Positions 8,179 to 21,154 of a stretch of 64,000 nucleotides of DNA are shown piece by piece. Position 1 is the stretch's first letter. Each line of letters starts with the position of its first letter. The stretch lies in contig NZ_JAHNZT010000001.1 in the NCBI RefSeq assembly GCF_019039035.1, forward strand, positions 398,049 through 462,048, given 5' to 3'. The notes beneath the pieces were generated by a model that did no database searches, was not told the origin of the DNA, and saw only the letters and a program-made list of their open reading frames with translations. Origin of the DNA: Citreicoccus inhibens. Its GTDB lineage: Bacteria; Myxococcota; Myxococcia; Myxococcales; Myxococcaceae. Made by a program: the position numbers and the translations under genes.

Positions 8179-8436
8179 TCAGCCGCCGAGCAGCCGGTTC
8201 ACGAGCGCGACGTAGTCCTTCTTCGCGGTCTCACGCGGCAGGCTCTTGCGCTGGGCCCACGCGTCGTACTTCGCGCGCCCCTTGATATCGAGCATCCCGG
8301 GACGCTTGCCCTGCACGTCGCCCTCGGTGGCCTGTTTGAAGAGGGAGTACAGGTCCAGCAACTGCTCGTTGGAAGGCCGGCTGGGGAGCGTCCTCACGCG
8401 CTCCTGCGCGGAGCGGAAATCATCATCGAGGGCCAT
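8179..8436 (-). CDS. Acyl-CoA-binding protein (ACBP)
   Basis: The protein has 85 residues and starts at the ATG at 8436. Length and sequence match the four-helix ACBP family: DDFRSAQERVRTLP, LYSLFKQATEGDVQGKRPG and KGRAKYDAWAQRKSLPRETAKKDYV cover helices 1-4 in order, with the Lys and Tyr residues that hold the CoA 3'-phosphate and acyl chain (K in FKQATEGD, Y in AKYDAW). It binds long-chain acyl-CoA esters in the cytoplasm. It is convergent with the JAMM gene (13-base gap) and divergent from the acyltransferase-NRPS cluster. The NRPS downstream begins with a condensation domain, which could use an acyl-CoA donor, but shared function is only a possibility. Confidence 0.92.
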   Translation of the reverse strand: MALDDDFRSAQERVRTLPSRPSNEQLLDLYSLFKQATEGDVQGKRPGMLDIKGRAKYDAWAQRKSLPRETAKKDYVALVNRLLGG

Positions 8437-8520
8437 GGCGTCTCCTGGTTCGCGCGACCATAGCAACGCGCGCGCACGACGCGGGTGGCGCGCCCACCCA
8501 CCGCTCCACGTCCCATCCCA

Positions 8521-8572
8521 GATACGGACAAACCTGCGCGCAGCCCAACGCGCGACCCACACAATCCGTATC
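8521..8572. promoter_or_regulatory. Inverted repeat upstream of the acyltransferase/NRPS cluster
   Basis: GATACGGA (8521-8528) and TCCGTATC (8565-8572) are perfect 8-bp inverted arms separated by 36 bases, inside the gap between divergent genes. A small palindrome CTGCGCGCAG lies between them (8534-8543). Closer to the acyltransferase start, TCTCG/CGAGA (8652-8656/8664-8668) and CTCAC/GTGAG (8660-8664/8671-8675) overlap. These could be operators for the cluster; no regulator is identified. Confidence 0.35.
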
Positions 8573-8681
8573 GGCTTCTCGGGGAGTTTCATGTCATGGC
8601 GCAACCTTCCAGGACATGGATTTTCTTGGAATATCCGAGCAGATTGCTTTGTCTCGCGACTCACGAGATTGTGAGAATTCC

Positions 8682-10502
8682 ATGATTCTCTACGACGAGA
8701 GCAACCTCTCCCAGCTCTCCTGGCCCGACACCCCCGAGGGGCGATTCGCGCGCGACTTCCTCACCCCGCTGCTGCGCCAAGGCACCTCGGCCTACGTCTC
8801 GGACCGCACCACCTTGCGCCTGGTGCAGATGGATGGCTGCGTCCTCCCGCTGGCCATCAACGACTCCGAGTACGACAACTCGGCCCTCTTCTCGACCTTC
8901 TCTCGATACATCACGTTGCAGTTGTCCGCGGTCACCGCCGAGGCGTGGGGACCTTTCCGCGCGTGGCTGGTCCGCGGCGTGATGAAGACGCTGGGGCTCT
9001 TGCTCAAGGCCGCGAAGATCGACCGGTGCGTCTACGTGGACCACTGGCTGATGTTGCGCAATCTCGGCGTGATGCTGTCCGCCGAGCAGGTGCGGCGTCT
9101 CACGGATTTCCTGGCGTCGCGCTATCCCCAGCACGCCATCGTCTTCCAGGCCGTGAATCCGGCCACCCACGCGCCGCTGCTGAACACCTTGAAGGACCAG
9201 GGCTACGAGTTCGTCTACGCGGCCCACACGCGCATGCTCGTGCCCTACAAGGCCGAGGTCAGCCGGCAGGTGCGCGAGAACCGCCGCCGCGACGCGCGCT
9301 TGCTCGAAGCCGCGGGCTATCAGCTCGTGGATGGGCGGACGATGCCGGACTGCGCGCCGAGGCTCGTGGAGCTGTACCGCGCGCTGAACGGCGAGAAGTA
9401 CTCGACGAACTTGCAGTTCTCGACCGAGTTCTTCGACACCACGCTGCGCGGGGGCGTCCTCGAGTACCGGCTCGCGGTGAAGGACGATCGCATCGACGGC
9501 TTCTACAGCTTCATGGTCAGCCACGACGTCGTCTCCTCGCCGGGCTTTGGGTATGACCTGAGTCTTCCGCAGGACCTCGGGCTGTACCGCGGCCTCGTGT
9601 ATCACCTGATGCAAGAGGCGGTGGATCGCGGGCTGACCATCGAGCTGGGCGCGGGCGCGGATCAATTCAAGAGCCTGCGCGGCGACAAGGGTGTGCCCCG
9701 CTACAGCGCGGTGTCCCTGCGTCACCTCCCAGAGTGGCGCAAGGCGGGCTGGAGACTGCTCCAGCGCTTCGCCAACGGCGGCCTGCTGCCCGCCTCCAAG
9801 GGATACCTCGGCGGAATCGAAGGCGAGCCGCCCGTGGGCTTTGACGCCATGCCCGACACGTTCTCGCCTCCCATGACCATGGGCCCGCGCGAGGCGGCGG
9901 CGGCGCTCCGCCAGGAACTGGACCTGCTGGAGCGAGGACTCGACGAGACGACCGGACTTGAAGGCGAGGCCTTGGCGCGAAGCCTGACGCCGCTCGCGGA
10001 CAAGCTCCACAACTGGCCTCAGCCCACGCTGCGTGTCCTCGAGCTGCGCGAGAAGCTGGCCAAGCGCGAGCAGGAGGCCCGGCGCAAGGACTCCGCGCGC
10101 CCGAAGGCCGAACAGCCCGCGGCGTCCGAGCAAGCGCAGCAACTCCTCGACGCCGCCATGCGAATGGGAGAGACGGCGCTCGTGGCGCGGCACCTGGGCG
10201 ACGCCTCCGCGCAGCACTTGCGCGCGGTCGTGGAGTGTCTGCGACAGGCCCCGGGTCCCACCGCGGTGGTGCTCACCGCGTGCCGAGGCGAGAAGGTGGT
10301 GCTCGTCACCGCCGCCACGCAATCGCTGCTCGCGCGGGGCGTGGATGCCAGCCAACTGATGGCTCAGGTCGCGCCCTCCGTGGGGGGAAAGGGAGGAGGT
10401 TCACCCGACGTCGCCTGGGGTGGAGGCTCACGCCCGGATGGCATTGACGCTGCGCTCAGCGCCGCGCGCGATTACCTCCAGGCGAGTCTTGGCAGTCATT
10501 GA
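8682..10502 (+). CDS. CelD/FemAB-like GNAT acyltransferase fused to an AlaRS C-Ala (DHHA1) domain, copy 1
   Basis: The protein has 606 residues, starting at ATG 8682 (MILYDESNLSQLSW); an ATG at 8616 is less likely because the paralogue begins at the equivalent point. Residues about 90-385 resemble CelD/FemAB-type acyltransferases built from GNAT folds (LNTLKDQGYEFVYAAHTRML, RQVRENRRRDARLLEAAGY, then a second GNAT-like half ending ADQFKSLRGDKGVPRY). Residues about 455-515 are helical, like the AlaRS linker. Residues about 520-606 match the C-Ala domain: GPTAVVLTACRGEKVVLVTA followed by SVGGKGGGSPDVAWGGG, close to the GGKGGGRPDMA signature that helps AlaRS bind tRNA-Ala. Some Fem-family enzymes use aminoacyl-tRNA as donor, so the fusion suggests an Ala-tRNA-dependent transferase. 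That activity is inference. Confidence 0.75.
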   Translation: MILYDESNLSQLSWPDTPEGRFARDFLTPLLRQGTSAYVSDRTTLRLVQMDGCVLPLAINDSEYDNSALFSTFSRYITLQLSAVTAEAWGPFRAWLVRGVMKTLGLLLKAAKIDRCVYVDHWLMLRNLGVMLSAEQVRRLTDFLASRYPQHAIVFQAVNPATHAPLLNTLKDQGYEFVYAAHTRMLVPYKAEVSRQVRENRRRDARLLEAAGYQLVDGRTMPDCAPRLVELYRALNGEKYSTNLQFSTEFFDTTLRGGVLEYRLAVKDDRIDGFYSFMVSHDVVSSPGFGYDLSLPQDLGLYRGLVYHLMQEAVDRGLTIELGAGADQFKSLRGDKGVPRYSAVSLRHLPEWRKAGWRLLQRFANGGLLPASKGYLGGIEGEPPVGFDAMPDTFSPPMTMGPREAAAALRQELDLLERGLDETTGLEGEALARSLTPLADKLHNWPQPTLRVLELREKLAKREQEARRKDSARPKAEQPAASEQAQQLLDAAMRMGETALVARHLGDASAQHLRAVVECLRQAPGPTAVVLTACRGEKVVLVTAATQSLLARGVDASQLMAQVAPSVGGKGGGSPDVAWGGGSRPDGIDAALSAARDYLQASLGSH

Positions 10503-10535
10503 ATTCCGTGTCGCGTCACCGGACTCACCCGACCC

Positions 10536-12359
10536 ATGCACCTCTACGACGAGACCCAGATCGAGGCGGCCCCTTGGCCAGACACCGAGGAAGGCCGACA
10601 GGCGAGAACCTTCCTCGTCCCGCTGTTCCAACAGGGCCCACAAGCCTTCTTCGAAGACAAAGCCAGCATGCGATTGCTGGCCATGGATGACCTGCTCATC
10701 CCGCTGTCCGTCACCGAATCCCCACACGACAACTCGTATTTCTTCTCCATGTTCGCGCGCTACATCACCAGTCAGCGCGCCGCCATCAAGACGGGCAATT
10801 GGAGTCCGGTCGCCGGCTTCGTCGCCAGCAGCGCGCTGTGGAGCGTGGGGTCGCTGCTCAAGGCCGCGCAGCTCGACAAGTGCGTGCAGGTCGACAACTG
10901 GCCCACCATGCGAAACATGGGAGCGGCCCTGAACGCGGACCAGGTGAAGCGCCTCACCGAGTTCCTCGTGTCGCGCTATCCGCATCACGCGATTGTCTTT
11001 CCCGCGCTGAATCCCGCCACCCACTCCCCGCTGCTCAATCACTTGAAGGGCCACGGCTACGAGTTCGCGTACATGACGCACACGCGAATGCTGCTGCCCT
11101 TCGGGTTGGAGCTGAGCCGACGGGCACGGGAGAACCGCCGCCGCGACGGCCGCATCGTGGAGACCACCGACTACAAGCTCGTCGAGGGGAAGGACGTGCC
11201 GGATTGCGCGCCACGGCTCGCCGAGCTGTACCGGATGCTGAACCGGGAGAAGTACACGACCAACCCACCCATCACGACCGCGTTCTTCGAAGCGGCGCTG
11301 CGCTCGGAGAAGTACCGCATCCGCCTGCTCGTGAAGGACGGACGCGTCGACATGTTCTACGGCATCACCATCAAGGACGACGTCGTCAACTGCGCGCTCT
11401 CCGGTTACGACATCACGCTGCCGCAAGAGCTCGGGCTGTACCGCATGCTCAACAACCTCCTGATGATGGAGGCCCTCGACCGTGGGCTCGCCATCGAGAC
11501 CGGAGGCGGCGCGGATCAATTCAAGACACTGCGAGGCGACCGGCCCCTGCCCCGCTACAACGCGGTGTACCTGAAGCACCTCTCCGCCCGCCGCAGGGGT
11601 GGCTGGAAGCTGGTGCAGCGACTGGCCAATGAGTCCCTCCTGAACGTGAGCCGCGCCCGGCTCAAACAGGTGGACGGAGACGAGAACGTCGCCGGCTTCG
11701 ACCGCATCCCCGAGACCTTCGCGCCCCCGTTCCTGAGTCCGCGGGAGTCCGTCCTCTTGCTGCGACAGGAGCTGGACGCGCTGGAGAAGGCCCTCGACGA
11801 GGCCGCCACACTGGAGGGCCTGGAGCGCGTCCACCGGCTCTCGGAATTGTCCAAGCGCCTGGAGGATGAGCAGCTCCCCCGTGACCGGGTCGCGGCGCTT
11901 CGCGAGCGCTGCGAGTCGCTCGCGTCGGCGATGCAGAAAGACAAGCGCGCGCGCAAGGCCTCGGGGCGAGCGCAACGCGCGGAGCAGGCGCGTCAACTCC
12001 TGGAGCAAGCCTCGAAGTTGGGCGACACCACGCTCGTCGCGAAGCACCTGGGCGAAGCGCCGCTGCATCACCTGCGCACGTTGGCGGAGCTGCTGCGCAA
12101 GTCGGCTCCGAACGCCGCCGTCGTCCTCGCGGCGACCCAAGGCTCCACCGTCGGGCTCGTCACCGCGGCGACCGCCGACCTCATCGAGCGCGGTGTGAAT
12201 GCAGGCATCCTGCTCGCACAGGCCGCACCCTCGGTGGGCGGCACGGGCGAGGGCAGCCCCGAGCTTGCCTGGGCCGAGGGGCCTCGACCGGAGGGCATCG
12301 CGGCGGCGCTGGACGCCACCCAGGCCTTCCTCCAGGCACGGCTGAACCCTCCGGCCTGA
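10536..12359 (+). CDS. CelD/FemAB-like GNAT acyltransferase fused to an AlaRS C-Ala-like domain, copy 2
   Basis: The protein has 607 residues and starts 33 bases after copy 1, which it matches along its full length (MHLYDETQIEAAPWPDTEEG against MILYDESNLSQLSWPDTPEG). The GNAT region is well kept (LNHLKGHGYEFAYMTHTRML, RRARENRRRDGRIVETTDY, ADQFKTLRGDRPLPRY). The C-terminal C-Ala-like part is recognisable but changed at its core: SVGGTGEGSPELAWAEG replaces the GGKGGG...GGG form seen in copy 1, so tRNA binding may be altered or lost. The pair is a recent-looking tandem duplication with divergence of the C-Ala end. The NRPS follows after 72 bases. Different donor or acceptor use by the two copies is likely but unproven. 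Confidence 0.75.
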   Translation: MHLYDETQIEAAPWPDTEEGRQARTFLVPLFQQGPQAFFEDKASMRLLAMDDLLIPLSVTESPHDNSYFFSMFARYITSQRAAIKTGNWSPVAGFVASSALWSVGSLLKAAQLDKCVQVDNWPTMRNMGAALNADQVKRLTEFLVSRYPHHAIVFPALNPATHSPLLNHLKGHGYEFAYMTHTRMLLPFGLELSRRARENRRRDGRIVETTDYKLVEGKDVPDCAPRLAELYRMLNREKYTTNPPITTAFFEAALRSEKYRIRLLVKDGRVDMFYGITIKDDVVNCALSGYDITLPQELGLYRMLNNLLMMEALDRGLAIETGGGADQFKTLRGDRPLPRYNAVYLKHLSARRRGGWKLVQRLANESLLNVSRARLKQVDGDENVAGFDRIPETFAPPFLSPRESVLLLRQELDALEKALDEAATLEGLERVHRLSELSKRLEDEQLPRDRVAALRERCESLASAMQKDKRARKASGRAQRAEQARQLLEQASKLGDTTLVAKHLGEAPLHHLRTLAELLRKSAPNAAVVLAATQGSTVGLVTAATADLIERGVNAGILLAQAAPSVGGTGEGSPELAWAEGPRPEGIAAALDATQAFLQARLNPPA

Positions 12360-12412: not shown

Positions 12413-12431
12413 CAGAGAGGTGTGCTCCACG

Positions 12432-15400
12432 ATGGCTCCGACGCAAGAAGACAAGCGGGCGCGGCTGGCGAGGCTCCTGCGCGAGAAGACACAACCTCAT
12501 CGACACGCGCCGCCCTCGTTCTCCCAGGAGCGCATGTGGTTCCTGGACCAGTGGAGTCCCGGTAGCGCGCTGTTCAACATGCCCGCGGTGGTGCGCCTCA
12601 CGGGCACGCTCCACCTGGACGCGCTCAAAGCCAGTCTCCAGCAGTTGGTGGATCGCCACGAACCGCTGCGCACGGTGCTCCCCGAGCAGGACGGCCAGCC
12701 GATCCAGGTCATCACGCCCACACAGCCCCTCTCGCTCACCGTGGTGGCGCTTCCGGAGCATCCGTCCACCGAGCGAGAGACCCGAGCCTGGGAGCACATC
12801 GCCAACGAGGCGCGGCGCCCCTTCGTGCTGGCGCAGGGCCCGCTCATGCGCGCCACGTTGTATCCGGTGCGCGCGGATGAGCACCTGCTCCTGCTCAACC
12901 TGCATCACATCATCGCGGACGGTTGGTCCATGGGCGTGCTCGTCCGGGAGTTGGCGGCCTTCTACGTCGCCTTCCTGGAAGAGCGCCCCGCGACCTTGTC
13001 AGCGCTGCCGCTCCAGTACGCGGACTTCGCCGTCTGGCAACGACAGTGGTTGCTCGGGGGCGTGCTGGAGGCACAGCTCGCCTTCTGGCGCGCGCGGCTG
13101 GATCCGCACTCCCGCATCGAGCTTCCGGCTGACAAGCCAAGGCCCGCGACGCTCGGGAACCGGGGGACTCGACAGGTGTCGCTGCTCTCGCCCTCGCTCA
13201 CGCAGAGCCTGCGGGACTTCAGTCAGCACGAAGGCAAGACACTGTTCGTCATCCTCCTCGCCGCCTTCGACGTCCTGCTCCATCGCTACACCGGGCAGAC
13301 GGACCTGACGGTCGGGACGCTCGTCTCCGGTCGCGGCCGGGCCGAGGTGGAGGGCCTCATCGGCCTGTTCATCAACGCCCTCCCACTGCGCACGGCCCTG
13401 TCCGGAAGCCTGACGTTCCGCGAGCTGCTGGAGCGGGTGCAGGACACGACGCTCAAGGCCTACGACCACCAGGACGTGCCCTTCGAGAAACTGGTCGAGG
13501 CCCTCAAACCCGAGCGCAGCTCCAGTCACCTGCCCATCGTCCAGGTGATGCTGATTCACCAGAACGCGCCCGCGTCGCCACTCCAGGCCCAGGGGCTCCG
13601 GATGGAGCCGCTTCCCGTCACCACCGAGACGACCAAGCACGACCTGACGCTCTACGCGATGGAGCTGCCCGACACCCTTCAGCTCAGCGCCGAGTACAAC
13701 ACCGACCTCTTCGAAGCACCGACGATGGTGCGCCTGCTTGGACACCTGCGCCTGCTCCTCGAAGGCGCGCTCGCGAATCCGGACGCACGCATCGCGGACC
13801 TACCCTTGTTGTCAGAGGCGGAGCGGCATCAAGTCCTCGTGGAGTGGCATGGCGCGCGTGACGCGTTCCCACAGCAGGCGTGCATCCACACGCTCATCGA
13901 GGCCCAAGCCCAGCGCACCCCACACGCCGTGGCGCTCACCTTCGAGGGCCAATCCCTCACGTACCAACAGGTTGACCAACGTGCCAATCAACTGGCGCAC
14001 CACCTGCGCGCGCAAGGCGTGGGCCCCGAGTCGCGTGTGGGCATATGCCTTGAACGGTCGCTGGAGCTGGTCATCTCCCTGCTCGCCACACTCAAGGCGG
14101 GCGGCGCCTATGTCCCGATGGATCCCGGCTATCCGGCGCAGCGCCTGACCTGGATGCTCGAGGATGCCCGGCCCACCGTCCTGGTGGCGCAGCACCCGCT
14201 GTTGTCCGTGCTGCCTCCGCACGACGCCCGCGTGGTGTGCGTGGACACCGAGGCGGAGGACATCGCGCGCCACCCGTCCCATGCTCCCGAGCCCTGGGCC
14301 ACGGCCGAGAACCTCGCGTACATCATCTTCACCTCGGGCAGCACTGGCCGGCCCAAGGGCGCGATGAATGCGCATCGCCCTGTCGTGAATCGGCTCCAGT
14401 GGATGCAGGGCGAATATCGCCTGGGCGCCGAGGACGTGGTCCTTCAGAAGACACCGTTCAGCTTCGACGTGTCCGTATGGGAGTTCTTCTGGCCCCTCAT
14501 GGTCGGCGCGCGGCTGGTGGTGGCGCGCCCGGGAGGACATCAAGAGCCCGCCTATCTCGCGCGGACCATCGAGGCCGAGCGAGTCACCACGCTGCACTTC
14601 GTCCCATCCATGCTCCAGGTGTTCCTCGAGGAGTCCGGCGAGGCGCGCTGTCGTTCGGTGAAGCGCCTGGTGTGCAGTGGCGAGGCGCTGCCCTTGGAGC
14701 TGAAGGAGCGCTGTCTCCAACGACTCCCGCATGCGGAGCTGCACAACCTCTACGGGCCCACCGAGGCCGCCGTGGACGTCACCGCCTTCGCCTGCAAGCC
14801 CGCCGATGGACGACGCTCGGTGCCCATTGGTCGGCCGGTGGCGAACACCTCCATCCGGCTGCTCGATTCGCGCATGAGCCCCGTGCCCGTGGGCGTCGCG
14901 GGCGAGCTGTTCATCGGGGGCGTCCAGGTGGGGCGTGGCTATCAATCGCGTCCGGACCTCACCGCCGAGCGATTCATCCCCGACCCGTTCAGCGATACGC
15001 CGGGCGCGCGCCTGTATCGCACGGGGGACGTGGCGCGCTGGCTGCCCGACGGGAACATCGAGTACCTGGGCCGCGCCGACTTCCAGGTGAAGGTGCGCGG
15101 CCTGCGCATCGAGCTGGGTGAGATTGAAGCCGCGCTGGAGCAACAGCCCGGTGTGCAGCAGGCCGTGGTGCTCGCGCGCGAGGACGTCCCCGGAGACAAG
15201 CGGCTCGTGGCCTATGTCGCCGGCCGAGGCGGACCAAGCGTGGTGGATGGCGAGGCCCTGCGCACCGCCCTCACGGCACGGCTGCCGGAGTACATGGTGC
15301 CCTCCGCGTTCGTCGTGTTGGAGTCACTGCCGCTCAACCCGAACGGAAAGGTCGAGCGCAAGGCGCTCCCCGCCCCCACAGTCGAGCGCACCGAGGAAGC

Positions 15401-18400
15401 CCGCGTGGCGCCGAGCACGCCCACCGAGCGCGAGGTCGCCGCGCTGTTCGAGGAGCTGCTCAGCGTGCGGGACGTCGGCGCGAAGGACGACCTGTTCCGA
15501 CTGGGGGGTAACTCGCTGCTCGCGACCCGCGTCCTCGCGCGACTGCGCGCCCGCTTCGGCGTCGAGCTGCCGCTCCGCGTTCTCTTCCAGCACTCGACTG
15601 TCCAGCAGCTCGCGAAGCTGGTGGATGACACCCGCGCGCTGGGCACCGAGCACGCGACGCCCACCGCCGCGACAGGCCAGCGCGAGCGGCGCCCCGCCAT
15701 ACCCTTGCATGTCGATGACGCACCCGAGGGGCCCGCGCCCAGCTCCATGACGGCGCACGAGGAGGGCCGCGCCACGGAGATCTCCCCCGAGGAACGGCAT
15801 CGTGTCCTGGTGGAGTGGAACAACACGGCCGCGGACTTCCCTCGCGGTGTTTGCATGCACCAGCTCGTCGAGGCGCAGGCCCAGCGGACCCCCAATGCCG
15901 TGGCGGTGGTCGCGGGCGGGGCCCGGCTCACCTACCGACAGCTCAACGCTCGCGCCAACCAGCTCGCGCGACATCTGCGCTCGCTGGGCGTGGGCCCCGA
16001 GGTCCGCGTCGGACTGTGCGTCGAACGTGGGGCCGACATGGTCGTGGGCATGCTGGGCATCCTCAAGGCCGGAGCAGCCTATGTCCCGCTCGACCCCACG
16101 TATCCTCGCGAGCGGCTGGCGTATCTCCTGGAGGATGCGCGAGGCCCGGCGCTCGTCGCGCACTCCCATCTGCTCCCGTCGCTGCCTCCGTACGACGCGC
16201 GGGTGGTCTGTCTGGACACGGAGCAGGAAGCGCTGGCGCGCGAATCCACCGATGCGCTCGAACCCGCCGCGACGTCGCAGAACCTCGCCTATCTCATCTA
16301 CACGTCGGGCAGCACGGGGCGCCCCAAGGGTGTCGCCATCACGCATCACAGCGCGGTGGCCTTCCTCGCGTGGGCCCATGCCATCTACTCCGCCGAGGAG
16401 CTGCGCGGTGTCCTGGCCTGCACGTCCGTCAACTTCGACCTCTCCGTGTTCGAGGTCTTCGCGCCGCTGAGTCGAGGCGGCACTGTCATCGTCGCGTGCA
16501 ATGCCTTGCATCTGGCCGAGCTGCCCGAGGCCGCCGAGGTCACCCTGCTCAACACGGTGCCCTCCGCCATGGCCCAGCTCCTGCGGCTCGGGGCGCTGCC
16601 GCCCTCGGTCCGCACCGTCAACCTCGCGGGCGAGGCGCTGCCCGCGCCCCTGGCCCGACAGGTCTTCGAGGTCCCCACCGTCGAGCACCTGTACAACCTC
16701 TACGGCCCCTCGGAGGACACCACGTACTCCACCTATGCCCACGTGCAGCGCGGCGAGGTGCCCAACATCGGCCGGACCATCACCAACACGCGCGCCTACG
16801 TATTGGACGCGCGGCTCCAGCCCGTGCCCGTCGGCGCCACGGGGGAGCTGTACCTCGCGGGAGACGGCCTCGCGCGCGGCTACCTTCACCGCCCCGACCT
16901 CACCGCGGAGCGCTTCATCCCCGCGCCCTTCGAGTCCGCGGGCTCGCGCATGTACAAGACCGGCGACCGCGTGCGGTATCGCGAGGACGGTGCGCTGGAG
17001 TACCTGGGCCGCAATGACTTCCAGGTGAAGATTCGCGGCTTCCGCATCGAACTGGGCGAGGTGGAGACCGCGGTCCAGGCGCAGCCGGTGGTGCGCGAGG
17101 CCGTGGTCATGGCGCGCGAGGACCACGCTGGCGACAAGCGACTCGTGGCCTATGTGGTCGCGCACGAAGGACAGACACTGGACGTGCCGACGCTGCGGCA
17201 GAGCCTGCGCCAGCGCCTCCCGGAGTTCATGGTCCCCTCGGCGTTCGTCGTGTTGGACACGCTCCCGCTGAACCCCAATGGAAAAGTCGATCGCAGGGCC
17301 CTGCCCGCCCCCGTCGCCGAGCGCGCGAGCACGCGCCCCTATGAGGCCCCGAGCACCCCCACCGAGGCGTTGCTCTCAGGCCTCTGGCGACAGGTGCTGG
17401 GATTGGAGCGCGCGGGACTTCAGGACCACTTCTTCGAACTGGGCGGTCACTCCTTGATGGCCACTCAGGTGGCCGCTCGGCTGCGCGCGTCGCTGCGCGT
17501 CGAGTTACCCTTGAGTGCCTTCTTTGAAGCCCCCACGCTCGGGGCCCTCGCGCAGCGAGTGGAGGCGGCTCGGGAGCAGGGCGACGCGCGCCCCATCATT
17601 CCGCCTCTGCTCCCCGTGCCTCGTGGCGCCAGGCTGCCGCTGTCCTTCGCGCAGCAGCGGCTGTGGCTGCTCGACCAACTCGAACCTGGCAGCACCGCCT
17701 ACACCATCCTCGCGGCGCTGCGCCTGAGGGGACCGCTCAATCCCCGTGCGCTCGTGCGCGCCTTCCAAGCCCTCCTCCAGCGCCATGAGAGCCTGCGCAC
17801 CCGCTTCCTCGCGGACGAGGAAGGACCGCATCAGCACATTCACGAGGACGCCGCTCCCGACATGCGGCTCATCGACCTGCAAGACCTGCCCGAATCGGAG
17901 CAGGAGCGCGAATCACTCGCGCTGGCCAGCGACGAGGCGGAGCGGCCCTTCGACCTCACGCGCGGCCCGCTCGTGCGAGGGCTGCTCATCCGCCGCACCG
18001 AGCAACATCACCTCCTCGTCGTGACGATGCACCACATCATCTCCGACGGCTGGTCGTCCGCCATCCTCATCCGCGAACTGTCCTCGCTGTACGCGGCGTT
18101 CGCGGCAGGCCAGGACACACGGCTGCCCGCGCTGTCATCGCAGTACGTGGACTACGCGCTGTGGCAGCGACAGTGGTTGCGCGGCGACGTGCTGGACTCC
18201 CAGCTGGACTACTGGCGCCGCCAGCTCGCGGGAGTGCCCACGGCCCTGCCCCTCCCCACCGACAAGCCCCGGCCCGCCGTGCAGACCTTCCGAGGCGGGC
18301 GCGTGCCCGTGAAGTTGGGCGTAGAGCTCACGCGAGCCATCTCGGCGCTGTGCGCGCGCGAGGGCGTCACGCCATTCATGCTGTTGCTGACGGGGCTCCA

Positions 18401-19769
18401 GGCCTTGCTCTCCCTCCTCTCGGGACAGCTCGACGTGGTGGTCGGTTCTCCCATCGCGGGACGCGGAGACGCGGAGCTGGAGGGCTTGATTGGCTGCTTC
18501 GTGAACACGCTCGCCCTGCGCGCCCAGATGGACCGCACGCTCGACTTCCGCGCGCTGCTGAAGCGGGTGCGCGACGTCACGCTGGGCGCCTACGCCCACC
18601 AAGATGTCCCCTTCGAGCGCGTCGTGGAGGCCGTGCTGCCCGTGCGCGACGCGAGCCGTGCGCCCCTCTTCCAGGTGCTCTTCGTCCTGGAGAATGCCCC
18701 GGTATCGCAGCCCATGGGCCCGGGGCTCTCACTCGACTTCGTGGACGTGGAGCGCCATTCGGCGAAGTTCGACCTGACGCTCGCGCTGTGGGACGAGCCC
18801 AGCGGCCTCTCCGGCGTGCTCGAATACAACAGCGACCTCTTCGCACCGTCCTCGGCGTCGCGCATGGCGGAACAACTGCGCGCGCTGCTCGCCTGGGGCG
18901 TGGCGAATCCCGAGCAGCCGCTCTCCACGTTCCATCTGGACGCGGCGCACTCCGAGGTACTTGTCCCCCTTCGCCCCCAAGGCACGAAGCCGCCACGCTT
19001 CTTCGTCCATGCCATCGGCGGCACCGTGCTGGGCTACGCGGAGCTGGCGCGTCAGCTCGAGCCCGACCGGCCCTTCTACGCGCTGCAAGCCCGCGGGCTC
19101 GAAGGAGGACATCCTCCGCTCGACACGGTCGAGGCCATGGCAGCGCACTATGTGCAGGCCCTCCAGACCGTGCAGCCCGTCGGGCCGTACCACCTGGGAG
19201 GCTGGTCCATGGGCGCCATCGTCGCGTTCGAGATGGCGCGGTTGCTCCAGGCCCGGGGTGAGCGCGTGGAGCCAGTTCTCTTCATCGAGCCGAGCCCCAG
19301 CGCCTACGCACAAGGCACTCGCATCGTGGACGCGGCGACGCTGGGCAGCCTCTTCGCGGCGAACCTCGCGCAGACGACCGGACTCTCGTTGGAGCTTCCC
19401 GCCCACGTCTCGCCCGATGACTCCCACGCGCTGCTTGGGCACTTGCTGGAAGAAGGCCGCCGCATGGGTGTCTTCGGTCCCGACGAGGGGCTCGACCACC
19501 TGCGGACGCTCCAGCGCGTCTTCACGGCTTGCGCAACCGCGCTCTATCAGCACACCCTTCGTCCGCTGAACCTCCCCATCACCCTGCTTCGCGGCACCGA
19601 AGCAGCCGTGGACGAGGGAGCAGACCGAACCCGGGGGTGGAGCGTGCTCGCCTCCCAAGTCGAGGTGGTGGACGTGCCCGGAGATCATTTCAGCATCCTG
19701 CGGTCCCCTCACGTAGAGGCCGTGGCGAGCGCCCTCGCGTCCCGCTCGCGGGCAGGTGGACTCACGTGA
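12432..19769 (+). CDS. Non-ribosomal peptide synthetase, C-A-T-A-T-C-TE
   Basis: The protein has 2445 residues. ATG 12432 is chosen over GTG 12420 because GAGAGG sits 11 bases upstream. Domains: C1 with HHIIADG (158-164); A1 with TSGSTGRPKG (~634) and NPNGKVERK (~969); carrier T1 with LGGNSLL (S1028); A2 with YTSGSTGRPKG (~1290); T2 with LGGHSLM (S1674); C2 with HHIISDG (~1867); thioesterase with GWSMG (S2259) and C-terminal His in GDHFS. The binding-pocket code read by alignment to GrsA is D-V-W-H-V-S-L-V-D-K for A1 (a serine-type code) and D-L-F-N-N-A-L-T-Y-K for A2 (alanine-like, from memory). No condensation domain lies between T1 and A2; only its trailing linker (SPEERHRVLVEWNNT) remains. 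C1 may accept an acyl or aminoacyl donor. The stop overlaps the exporter start. Confidence 0.93.
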   Translation: MAPTQEDKRARLARLLREKTQPHRHAPPSFSQERMWFLDQWSPGSALFNMPAVVRLTGTLHLDALKASLQQLVDRHEPLRTVLPEQDGQPIQVITPTQPLSLTVVALPEHPSTERETRAWEHIANEARRPFVLAQGPLMRATLYPVRADEHLLLLNLHHIIADGWSMGVLVRELAAFYVAFLEERPATLSALPLQYADFAVWQRQWLLGGVLEAQLAFWRARLDPHSRIELPADKPRPATLGNRGTRQVSLLSPSLTQSLRDFSQHEGKTLFVILLAAFDVLLHRYTGQTDLTVGTLVSGRGRAEVEGLIGLFINALPLRTALSGSLTFRELLERVQDTTLKAYDHQDVPFEKLVEALKPERSSSHLPIVQVMLIHQNAPASPLQAQGLRMEPLPVTTETTKHDLTLYAMELPDTLQLSAEYNTDLFEAPTMVRLLGHLRLLLEGALANPDARIADLPLLSEAERHQVLVEWHGARDAFPQQACIHTLIEAQAQRTPHAVALTFEGQSLTYQQVDQRANQLAHHLRAQGVGPESRVGICLERSLELVISLLATLKAGGAYVPMDPGYPAQRLTWMLEDARPTVLVAQHPLLSVLPPHDARVVCVDTEAEDIARHPSHAPEPWATAENLAYIIFTSGSTGRPKGAMNAHRPVVNRLQWMQGEYRLGAEDVVLQKTPFSFDVSVWEFFWPLMVGARLVVARPGGHQEPAYLARTIEAERVTTLHFVPSMLQVFLEESGEARCRSVKRLVCSGEALPLELKERCLQRLPHAELHNLYGPTEAAVDVTAFACKPADGRRSVPIGRPVANTSIRLLDSRMSPVPVGVAGELFIGGVQVGRGYQSRPDLTAERFIPDPFSDTPGARLYRTGDVARWLPDGNIEYLGRADFQVKVRGLRIELGEIEAALEQQPGVQQAVVLAREDVPGDKRLVAYVAGRGGPSVVDGEALRTALTARLPEYMVPSAFVVLESLPLNPNGKVERKALPAPTVERTEEARVAPSTPTEREVAALFEELLSVRDVGAKDDLFRLGGNSLLATRVLARLRARFGVELPLRVLFQHSTVQQLAKLVDDTRALGTEHATPTAATGQRERRPAIPLHVDDAPEGPAPSSMTAHEEGRATEISPEERHRVLVEWNNTAADFPRGVCMHQLVEAQAQRTPNAVAVVAGGARLTYRQLNARANQLARHLRSLGVGPEVRVGLCVERGADMVVGMLGILKAGAAYVPLDPTYPRERLAYLLEDARGPALVAHSHLLPSLPPYDARVVCLDTEQEALARESTDALEPAATSQNLAYLIYTSGSTGRPKGVAITHHSAVAFLAWAHAIYSAEELRGVLACTSVNFDLSVFEVFAPLSRGGTVIVACNALHLAELPEAAEVTLLNTVPSAMAQLLRLGALPPSVRTVNLAGEALPAPLARQVFEVPTVEHLYNLYGPSEDTTYSTYAHVQRGEVPNIGRTITNTRAYVLDARLQPVPVGATGELYLAGDGLARGYLHRPDLTAERFIPAPFESAGSRMYKTGDRVRYREDGALEYLGRNDFQVKIRGFRIELGEVETAVQAQPVVREAVVMAREDHAGDKRLVAYVVAHEGQTLDVPTLRQSLRQRLPEFMVPSAFVVLDTLPLNPNGKVDRRALPAPVAERASTRPYEAPSTPTEALLSGLWRQVLGLERAGLQDHFFELGGHSLMATQVAARLRASLRVELPLSAFFEAPTLGALAQRVEAAREQGDARPIIPPLLPVPRGARLPLSFAQQRLWLLDQLEPGSTAYTILAALRLRGPLNPRALVRAFQALLQRHESLRTRFLADEEGPHQHIHEDAAPDMRLIDLQDLPESEQERESLALASDEAERPFDLTRGPLVRGLLIRRTEQHHLLVVTMHHIISDGWSSAILIRELSSLYAAFAAGQDTRLPALSSQYVDYALWQRQWLRGDVLDSQLDYWRRQLAGVPTALPLPTDKPRPAVQTFRGGRVPVKLGVELTRAISALCAREGVTPFMLLLTGLQALLSLLSGQLDVVVGSPIAGRGDAELEGLIGCFVNTLALRAQMDRTLDFRALLKRVRDVTLGAYAHQDVPFERVVEAVLPVRDASRAPLFQVLFVLENAPVSQPMGPGLSLDFVDVERHSAKFDLTLALWDEPSGLSGVLEYNSDLFAPSSASRMAEQLRALLAWGVANPEQPLSTFHLDAAHSEVLVPLRPQGTKPPRFFVHAIGGTVLGYAELARQLEPDRPFYALQARGLEGGHPPLDTVEAMAAHYVQALQTVQPVGPYHLGGWSMGAIVAFEMARLLQARGERVEPVLFIEPSPSAYAQGTRIVDAATLGSLFAANLAQTTGLSLELPAHVSPDDSHALLGHLLEEGRRMGVFGPDEGLDHLRTLQRVFTACATALYQHTLRPLNLPITLLRGTEAAVDEGADRTRGWSVLASQVEVVDVPGDHFSILRSPHVEAVASALASRSRAGGLT

Positions 19770-21154
19770 CGACGGCATCCCCCTCCAGCACGCGGGCCAT
19801 CACCCACCCTTCGAGCGTCTTCTTCATCACCTGGGCGGGGCTCGCCGTGTCCTGGTTTGGCTCGGGGCTGATGAGCTTCGCCATTGGCACCGTCGTCTAC
19901 CATCGCACGGGCTCCATCACCGAGTACTCCCTCTTCAGCTTCTTCTATTTCGTGCCCCTGGCACTCGTGTCCCCCATCGCCGGAGCGCTGGTTGACCGGT
20001 GGGACCGGCGCAGCGCCATCCTGTTGAGCGACGTGGGCGCCGGGCTCTCCTCCGCGCTCATCTGGGTGATGCTCGTGGCCAGCGACGCGGGGCGCTGGAA
20101 GCTGGAGACCTGGCACTTCTACGTCCTCATCGCGCTGAGTTCGGCGTTCGTCGCCCTGCATGGACCGGCGTATTACGCGACCACGTCGCTGCTCGTTCCG
20201 AAGCACCAGCTCGGCCGTGCGAACGGCCTCATCGAGCTGGCGTTCGGCGCTGGGCAGATCCTCTCGCCCATCGTCGCGGGGGCGTTGGTGGGGCGCGTCG
20301 GGTTGAAGGGCATCGTGTTCATGGACGTGATGTCCTTCGTGTTCTCCATCTCCACCCTGCTCATCGTCCGCCTGCCTCGGCCTCCCCCGCTCGCCTCGGA
20401 TCAGGTCGGCACCCCCAGCCTCCGACGCGACGTCACCGAGGGCTGGCACTTCATCCGACAGCGGCGGGGCCTGCTCCAACTCGTGGTGTTCGTCCTCTTC
20501 CTCAATCTCAACGTGGGGATGGTCGCCTCGCTCATCACGCCGCTCGTGCTGGCCTTCTCGGACGTCTCGACCTTGGGTCGCGTCATGTCGTTCTCCGGCC
20601 TGGGAATGGTCGCGGGCGGAATCGCCATGAGCGTGTGGGGGGGCCCCAAGCGCCGCATCCACGGCATCCTGGGCTTCTACCTGCTGTCCTCGTTCGTGCT
20701 GCTCGCCGCGGCCATGCCGCCCACGGCCGTCGTCATCGCGACCGCGGCGTTCTTCTACCTGTCGTGCTCGCCCATCATCGTGGGGTGCTTGTCCTCGCTC
20801 TGGCAAAGCAAGGTCCCGCCCGCGCTTCAGGGGCGCGTGTTCTCCGTTCGGCGGATGATCAGCCTGAGCGCGCCGCCCCTCGCCGCGCTGCTGGGAGGCC
20901 CCATCGCGGACAAGCTGTTCGAGCCTTGGCTCGCGCCCACGGGCCTGCTGGCGAACAGCGTGGGCCAGTTCATTGGCACCGGCCCCGGCCGAGGCATCGC
21001 CTTGCTCTTCCTGTTGATGAGTCTGGGGATGATGGTGCAGAGCGTGCTGTCGTACCTGTCACCGCACATCCGCAACATCGAGGACGAACTCCCCGACGCG
21101 CTGCCTGAGACCGTGGCGGAGGCGACGCCCGCTCAAGTCACTCCCGCGACCTGA
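19766..21154 (+). CDS. MFS-family exporter of the NRPS cluster
   Basis: The protein has 462 residues. GTG 19766 overlaps the NRPS stop codon (GTGA), which indicates translational coupling; longer frames into the NRPS are not credible. It has about 10-12 hydrophobic segments, the first being SSVFFITWAGLAVSWFGSGL. The MFS signature between helices 2 and 3 is present as GALVDRWDRR, and the loop after helix 6 carries polar/basic residues. The pattern is that of MFS_3-type exporters such as those moving siderophores and peptides out of the cell. The cytoplasmic C-terminal tail is Asp/Glu/Pro-rich. Coupling to the NRPS makes product export or self-protection the likely role; substrate is unproven. 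Confidence 0.85.
   Translation: MTTASPSSTRAITHPSSVFFITWAGLAVSWFGSGLMSFAIGTVVYHRTGSITEYSLFSFFYFVPLALVSPIAGALVDRWDRRSAILLSDVGAGLSSALIWVMLVASDAGRWKLETWHFYVLIALSSAFVALHGPAYYATTSLLVPKHQLGRANGLIELAFGAGQILSPIVAGALVGRVGLKGIVFMDVMSFVFSISTLLIVRLPRPPPLASDQVGTPSLRRDVTEGWHFIRQRRGLLQLVVFVLFLNLNVGMVASLITPLVLAFSDVSTLGRVMSFSGLGMVAGGIAMSVWGGPKRRIHGILGFYLLSSFVLLAAAMPPTAVVIATAAFFYLSCSPIIVGCLSSLWQSKVPPALQGRVFSVRRMISLSAPPLAALLGGPIADKLFEPWLAPTGLLANSVGQFIGTGPGRGIALLFLLMSLGMMVQSVLSYLSPHIRNIEDELPDALPETVAEATPAQVTPAT

Follow-up and report, generated by a model that had tools for sequence, protein, structure and literature searches.

A 64,000-nucleotide stretch of DNA from the myxobacterium Citreicoccus inhibens (contig NZ_JAHNZT010000001.1, forward-strand positions 398,049 to 462,048), referred to here as the window, carries two adjacent plus-strand genes whose products join a transferase with a predicted double GNAT fold to a C-Ala domain, the C-terminal domain of alanyl-tRNA synthetase (AlaRS). 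The G+C content of the window is 69%, and its source genome, of 9.0 Mb, has its relatives among the Myxococcota. The first gene (copy 1, 8682-10502, 606 amino acids) was defined from its open reading frame, Pfam and NCBIfam matches and a structure model, and has a Fem/MprF-like double GNAT fold followed by C-Ala. The second (copy 2, 10536-12359, 607 amino acids), defined from its open reading frame, Pfam matches and a model, is a paralogue of the same architecture in which the glycine core of C-Ala is lost. A gap of 33 bases separates the two genes, and their products are 51% identical end to end (309 of 605 columns). We placed the start of copy 1 at the ATG at 8682, where the alignment of most fused homologues begins, the open frame extending further upstream. 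The structure models have predicted local distance difference test (pLDDT) values of 88.4 for copy 1 and 90.3 for copy 2. A first-pass annotation of this DNA, made from the sequence by a model, had proposed tandem transferase/C-Ala fusions at 8682-12359 and knew of no described enzyme built in this way. The two open reading frames, DHHA1 matches over the cut-off and superposition of both models on C-Ala confirm this architecture, and we found no description of one like it in the open-licence PMC literature on such fusions.

The resemblance of the tails to C-Ala held in profile searches as well as in structure comparison. Pfam DHHA1 matched residues 506-600 of copy 1 (38.1 bits, E 2.3e-9) and residues 511-600 of copy 2 (30.6 bits, E 4.7e-7), with a gathering score of 25.9. 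The last 128 positions (720-847) of the NCBIfam alaS model TIGR00344 matched residues 454-582 of copy 1 (E 6.7e-13), and the same C-terminal end matched copy 2 (E 8.5e-10); the TIGR00344 score is under the whole-protein cut-off, as expected when only one domain is present. Neither copy had a Pfam or NCBIfam match to the aminoacylation or editing domains of AlaRS. The solved structures closest to copy 1 by phmmer were AlaRS C-Ala chains (Aquifex 3g98, E 7e-7; 5t5s, E 2e-5). In copy 1 the domain covers 9882-10490 on the plus strand, with a helical part (helices within residues 402-472) and a globular subdomain (about 475-603), as delimited by VIA-align and DHHA1. With the predicted model of this tail, VIA-align gave Z 17.1 to 3g98 (root-mean-square deviation, rmsd, 2.5; 110 residues aligned), 17.7 to the AlaRS integrative model 9a7x_B and 15.1 to tRNA-bound AlaRS 3wqy, and residues 401-604, helical part included, aligned with human C-Ala 5t5s (Z 16.6, rmsd 4.6, 199 aligned). 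The predicted copy-2 tail reached Z 18.1 with 3g98, and over both models the AlaRS C-Ala chains scored Z 14-19 (14-18 for copy 1 alone). In both models, then, residues 401-604 contain the helical and the globular C-Ala fold. Pfam DHHA1 covers both AlaRS and RecJ/NrnA-type domains, and the tail might instead be a nucleic-acid or oligonucleotide module of the latter type, unrelated to AlaRS, as RecJ chains align with the copy-1 model at Z about 13. We consider such an origin scarcely credible and rejected it on profile scores and Z: archaeal RecJ has an E-value of 0.008 against that of alaS, the Z scores of AlaRS chains are higher, and the helical part also aligns with the human domain.

The glycine core distinguishes the two copies, as had been noted from the sequence. 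From residue 566 onward copy 1 carries SVGGKGGGSPDVAWGGG, a motif close to the AlaRS C-Ala signature, and GKGGG occupies residues 569-573 by position and alignment (10386-10400, plus strand). Copy 2, whose model matches C-Ala, has GTGEG where copy 1 has GKGGG (12240-12254, plus strand, from the alignment), so that it keeps the fold and loses the core. AlaRS binds tRNA mainly through C-Ala, whose globular subdomain targets the tRNA elbow (PMC10036535, PMC10485164); the helical subdomain mediates dimerisation (PMC10036535). In the Caenorhabditis elegans domain a lysine inside GKGGG reads G18, a conserved base of the D-loop (PMC10485164). Through the shared GGKGGG string, K570 of copy 1 is the equivalent of K934 of the C. 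elegans protein. We followed this motif in 31 fused proteins, a set made without L152 (same locus as L040), the G117:C3 pair and the G114:C104 copy; it includes proteins from solo loci, where a fused gene occurs outside the tandem pair. GKGGG is kept in 19/19 copy-1 and solo proteins and in 0/12 copy-2 proteins, and the AlaRS-type GG-rich segment with the G18-reading lysine is likewise present in the former and absent in the latter.

Matches to the N-terminal domain (E <= 0.001) were found in 18 of 195 Myxococcota genomes, 17 of them strong and one weak and partial. The 17 genomes have the fusion, with a best copy 59-100% identical, and all belong to the family of the window, in four genera. 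Both copies are present in 13 of the 17, side by side on one contig in 12 and split over two contigs in the other, and a solo locus occurs in 8 genomes, four of these also with the pair. A C-Ala profile of our own confirmed the domain in 30 of 31 fetched proteins; the exception is copy 2 of Corallococcus sicarius (L040), which stops after the helical part and has no globular domain. From a collection of 84,980 species, one peptide pattern yielded 194 relatives of the N-terminal domain, and among the best 80 of these C-Ala was present only in two myxobacterial loci (Archangium lansinium and C. sicarius), the other 78 being without it; relatives lacking the pattern may exist outside the 194. Viral contigs gave 22 pattern matches, none a relative, and 20 plasmid records matched, none over 80% of the query. 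In the source genome the query used gave one other C-Ala match, in a 963-amino-acid open frame taken to be the housekeeping AlaRS, and no second C-Ala-bearing AlaRS was seen with that query.

An unrooted tree of 30 fused C-Ala domains (without copy 2 of L040, which has no globular domain) and 29 from AlaRS, all of the latter from Myxococcota, separated every fused domain from the AlaRS ones by a branch with support 100/100. Among the fused domains, the 11 from copy 2 cluster together (99/98), as do 18 copy-1 and solo domains (96/87); copy 1 of Archangium branches just outside the latter group. This topology favours one fusion and, later, one duplication before the genera split.

The N-terminal domain of copy 1 (residues 1-363, 8682-9770, plus strand) was delimited by VIA-align to FemX, Sbb17 and MprF. 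Its predicted structure matched FemX 4ii9, in complex with peptidyl-RNA, at Z 17.0 (rmsd 4.2, 285 aligned), Sbb17 9wqw at 16.3 (Sbb17/Sba18 range 16.2-16.3) and the MprF/A-PGS group at 13.7-15.5 (MprF 7duw 15.5, A-PGS 4v35 14.2). Double GNATs bound to coenzyme A (CoA) reached at most Z 13.7 (VipF 6wqb, rmsd 7.7), and MAB_4324, a tandem GNAT, had 13.3. Copy 2 gave much the same ranking, with FemX 7z5y at Z 16.2. In an alignment of 58 proteins, K239, Y240, G290, Y291, L301-Y302-R303 and F329-K330 are invariant in all 58 rows, and the FK pair (9666-9671, plus strand, located from alignments) is kept in 31/31 fused proteins. In DhpH-C, Lys329 of a Phe328-Lys329 pair is reported essential, and FemX Lys305 analogous (PMC12945691). 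K330 may be the equivalent of these lysines, an assignment drawn from the FK motif rather than from residue superposition. The related string FKxGF occurs in 9 of 13 FemAB open reading frames compared.

The pair lies directly upstream of a gene for a non-ribosomal peptide synthetase (NRPS). Its open frame begins 60 bases past copy 2 (12420-19769, plus strand) and encodes 2449 amino acids, in which Pfam, applied by segment, reads condensation (C), adenylation (A), thiolation (T) and thioesterase (TE) domains in the order C-A-T-A-T-C-TE, with no C domain between T1 and A2. A motif search likewise saw no HHxxxDG between T1 and A2 in 12 related NRPS. The A-domain signatures agree across the 12 NRPS read by motif, save for blocks missed by the pattern (one A1 block in all 12 and one A2 block in L150); their specificities are presumably Ser-like (DVW...) and Ala-like (DLFNNALTY...), codes that we do not use as evidence. 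An NRPS gene is directly downstream of the pair in 12/12 tandem loci examined, a set in which G114 has only copy 2 on that contig and from which the G117 pair was left out. Of the 8 solo loci, the 7 of Corallococcus type have an NRPS-type gene on the opposite strand at a distance of about 3 kb, and the eighth (G133) has none within 20 kb.

On balance we lean, by a small degree, towards the view that the pair is an aminoacyl-tRNA-dependent transferase of the NRPS pathway, with the tail as a clamp and alanine as the likely donor residue; it suggests an enzyme pair that borrows an amino acid from tRNA to build a small molecule. From the architecture, the predicted fold, the conservation and the NRPS linkage we infer the use of tRNA, the choice of alanine, a heterodimer, the acceptor and the role of K330. 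Copies 1 and 2 would serve a myxobacterial NRPS pathway as accessory enzymes that form peptide bonds and, judged by analogy, most likely work like ligases of the Fem, MprF and PacB types. The FemX/MprF-like double GNAT would draw on an aminoacyl-tRNA, probably Ala-tRNA-Ala, removing the aminoacyl group from its 3' end with K330 polarising the ester; the acceptor would be an amine on an intermediate that is either still bound to the NRPS or already released. Copy 1 would use its C-Ala tail to grip the tRNA elbow as in AlaRS, raising the affinity for a substrate otherwise busy in translation. In copy 2, where this grip would be degenerate or missing, the retained helical part, a dimer module in AlaRS, probably serves to pair it with copy 1; alternatively, copy 2 may carry out a second transfer at lower tRNA affinity.

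Several observations weigh against this reading. No Pfam GNAT family matched the window's own copies, and the GNAT assignment rests on PF13480 matches of relatives and on the fold. Among the 58 aligned proteins PF13480 matched 35, DHHA1 5 and PF04339 FemAB_like 1 (E <= 0.01), and PF02388 (FemABX) matched neither the window copies nor any of the 58. PF02388 was searched for in 8 genomes that carry stand-alone loci and in 23 genomes from a single family; hhalign of the N-terminal domain profile then found no match to 13 FemAB open reading frames. Four of these, which lacked the FK.GF motif and may be wrong frames, were dropped, and the 9 kept, all from one bacterial family, gave no match either. 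A profile search of the PDB sequences gave only three chance-level matches (E 0.56-0.76). FemAB membership by sequence was rejected on the absent PF02388 and hhalign matches, so that the relation to Fem enzymes is at the fold level only. The architecture proposed in the first-pass annotation, a CelD/FemAB-like GNAT fold with C-Ala, is supported by profile and fold; judged by sequence, the proteins combine a divergent GNAT close to PF13480 with a genuine C-Ala domain. In the fold ranking, Weissella FemX and Sbb17 score clearly above both VipF and 2hqy, a protein of unknown function (Z 13.6, rmsd 4.0), with which the lower MprF rows (13.7-14.3) tie; because the MprF range overlaps VipF as well as 2hqy, the ranking is not decisive between donors.

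The relatives that stand alone, without C-Ala, also count against the reading. They commonly lie in a six-gene cluster of KASIII, ATP-grasp, SDR, MBL hydrolase, AMP ligase and GNAT genes, so that the N-terminal domain family as a whole need not use tRNA; of 78 loci, 45 have all five partners of the GNAT, 63 have an ATP-grasp gene of any kind and 13 have no recognised partner. The KASIII of these clusters is OleA-like and the AMP ligase related to F390 synthetase (TIGR02304); they occur in Bacillota, Cyanobacteria and others (L041-L118, L033, L036-L038), and no paper on such a cluster was found in the open-licence PMC literature. A further cousin without C-Ala, in a Corallococcus-type genome (L165:9039-13801), has as neighbours genes for DUF3419, which we take to be BtaA-like, an Asp/Asn hydroxylase, a haem-oxygenase-like protein and a FeeM-like N-acyl amino acid synthase, perhaps an aminolipid cluster. 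These surroundings, and PF13480 being the only GNAT family that most relatives match, are points in favour of a different enzyme, an N-acyltransferase of the CelD-like PF13480 family that depends on acyl-CoA or an acyl carrier and in which the captured C-Ala now serves for dimerisation or docking and no longer binds tRNA. The dimerising helical subdomain of AlaRS and the low charge of the fused C-Ala would fit such a use. We judge this alternative rather unlikely, though the most serious of those considered: a tail that only dimerises would hardly account for GKGGG in every copy-1 and solo protein, and the top fold matches are enzymes of aminoacyl-tRNA. Furthermore, CoA-dependent GNATs carry the P-loop motif QxxGxG/A, and the position that is G or A in them is Tyr in 58/58 of the aligned proteins.

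The tail itself supplies the remaining unfavourable points. The globular C-Ala of the 19 copy-1 and solo proteins has an isoelectric point (pI) of 5.7-8.2 and a net charge of -2 to +1, while that of 6 AlaRS of the same order is far more basic (pI 9.0-9.45, net +2 to +3); copy-2 domains have a pI of 4.9-6.1 (11 proteins). Copy-1 C-Ala contains 2-5 lysines against 8-11 in AlaRS, and the second lysine of GGKGGGK is replaced by S or A in the fused proteins. We also estimated ratios of nonsynonymous to synonymous substitution (dN/dS) by simple NG86 counts in domain windows cut by offset, and the values are accordingly rough. Four copy-1 pairs gave 0.03, 0.25, 0.03 and 0.55 for globular C-Ala and 0.14, 0.33, 0.10 and 0.27 for the N-terminal domain, so that C-Ala is lower than the catalytic domain in three of four, which speaks for the main reading; the unfavourable 0.55 comes from only 7 changes. 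In four copy-2 pairs the values were 0.09, 0.36, 0.13 and 0.41 for C-Ala and 0.09, 0.29, 0.24 and 0.31 for the N-terminal domain; C-Ala of copy 2 is therefore under purifying selection (0.09-0.41) and not simply decaying, a further difficulty. In three solo pairs (C-Ala 0.26, 0.32 and 0.31; N-terminal domain 0.26, 0.26 and 0.41) C-Ala is no more constrained than the N-terminal domain in two. By these values, constraint on the tail of either copy is roughly that on the catalytic domain.

Direct recognition of tRNA-Ala by the fused tail, as the first-pass annotation had it, goes beyond this evidence. Alanine identity is set by the G3:U70 pair, which AlaRS reads with domains other than C-Ala (PMC10036535, PMC10485164). 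Since C-Ala targets the elbow, the tail would give affinity, and the choice of alanine would be made elsewhere or by a D-loop preference of the kind seen in C. elegans; for this reason, and because the fused tail is poor in lysine, alanine as the transferred residue is plausible only. The pair might thus use an aminoacyl-tRNA other than Ala-tRNA, C-Ala clamping the elbow of tRNAs in general and the pocket of the GNAT selecting, for example, Ser or Gly. The C. elegans domain binds various tRNAs (PMC10485164), natural-product enzymes with the GNAT fold use Ala, Ser, Gly or Leu (PMC12945691), and the tail is the only AlaRS domain matched here. This variant seems to us improbable, since C-Ala descends from AlaRS and the C. 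elegans domain prefers tRNA-Ala.

The reading with Ala-tRNA as donor has partial counterparts among known systems. FemX of Weissella viridescens shares with copy 1 the double GNAT fold and the conserved FK in the second GNAT; it differs in having a peptidoglycan precursor as acceptor, and no sequence-profile relation between FemABX and the N-terminal domain was found. To our knowledge, FemX has no C-Ala. PacB, VlmA, DhpH-C, DhpK and Orf11/Sbb17 resemble the pair in their double GNAT fold and natural-product setting, and the NRPS-adjacent position of the pair in a biosynthetic cluster is as for aminoacyl-tRNA-dependent GNAT ligases of natural products; the review PMC12945691 gives these enzymes a tRNA-binding helix besides their two GNAT domains and mentions no C-Ala. 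The same review gives a precedent in PacB, a Fem-type tRNA-dependent transferase that works with an NRPS and adds L-Ala in pacidamycin. LysX likewise fuses a GNAT-fold aminoacyl transferase (MprF) to tRNA-charging machinery (PMC2922099, PMC2713425), but there a LysRS synthetase paralogue is fused and lipids are aminoacylated, whereas the pair has only the tRNA-gripping tail and an NRPS setting. AcmF of ascamycin, a truncated AlaRS-like transferase, is another case of an AlaRS piece recruited to natural-product alanylation (PMC12945691); the pair uses the other end of AlaRS, with a GNAT catalyst. Finally, C-Ala of AlaRS (3g98, 3wqy, 5t5s) shares with the tails both subdomain folds, the C-terminal position and, in copy 1, the GKGGG core, but the fused domain is far less basic and comes without a synthetase or editing domain. 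No GNAT with only a tRNA-gripping tail was found described in the open-licence PMC literature on such fusions or on Fem-type enzymes. We tentatively propose a more specific version, which we hold to be possible though doubtful in its entirety: a Fem-type transferase with its own AlaRS-derived elbow clamp, in a heterodimer with a clamp-deficient paralogue, would make the amide bond for which the C-A-T-A-T-C-TE NRPS lacks an internal C domain.

Other genes complete the neighbourhood. A gene for an MFS transporter (19766-21154, plus strand, Pfam MFS_1) follows the NRPS and is a possible exporter of the product; it is 60% identical to an MFS upstream of the Archangium lansinium pair, and an MFS was recognised in 2/12 tandem loci, some loci being cut before the NRPS end. 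On the opposite strand, immediately upstream of copy 1, lies a gene for an acyl-CoA-binding protein (8179-8664, minus strand; ACBP, E 4.7e-28). A 452-amino-acid protein (L039:7230-8588) is encoded near the pair, not always as immediate neighbour, in 8 of 12 tandem loci, and a copy 56% identical is on another contig of the source genome (G000:C11:118687-120042); it has no Pfam or NCBIfam match, and the label ATP-grasp-like is a guess. The solo fusions L156-L159 and L162-L164 have a conserved neighbourhood of their own, different from that of the pair. A scan of promoters and terminators gave 0 promoter-like and 2 terminator-like sites, with no excess over shuffles.

Together, these results indicate that the tRNA-binding tail of AlaRS seems to have been joined to another enzyme. 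If the specific version proposed above were true, amino acids would go straight from the tRNAs of translation to an assembly line. If the tail binds tRNA, the pair would show that enzymes consuming aminoacyl-tRNA can be built by adding a grip, would offer a handle for engineering such ligases, and would point to a myxobacterial product not yet explored. Should the tail not bind tRNA, the fusion would be a clear example of a tRNA domain turned to a different function.

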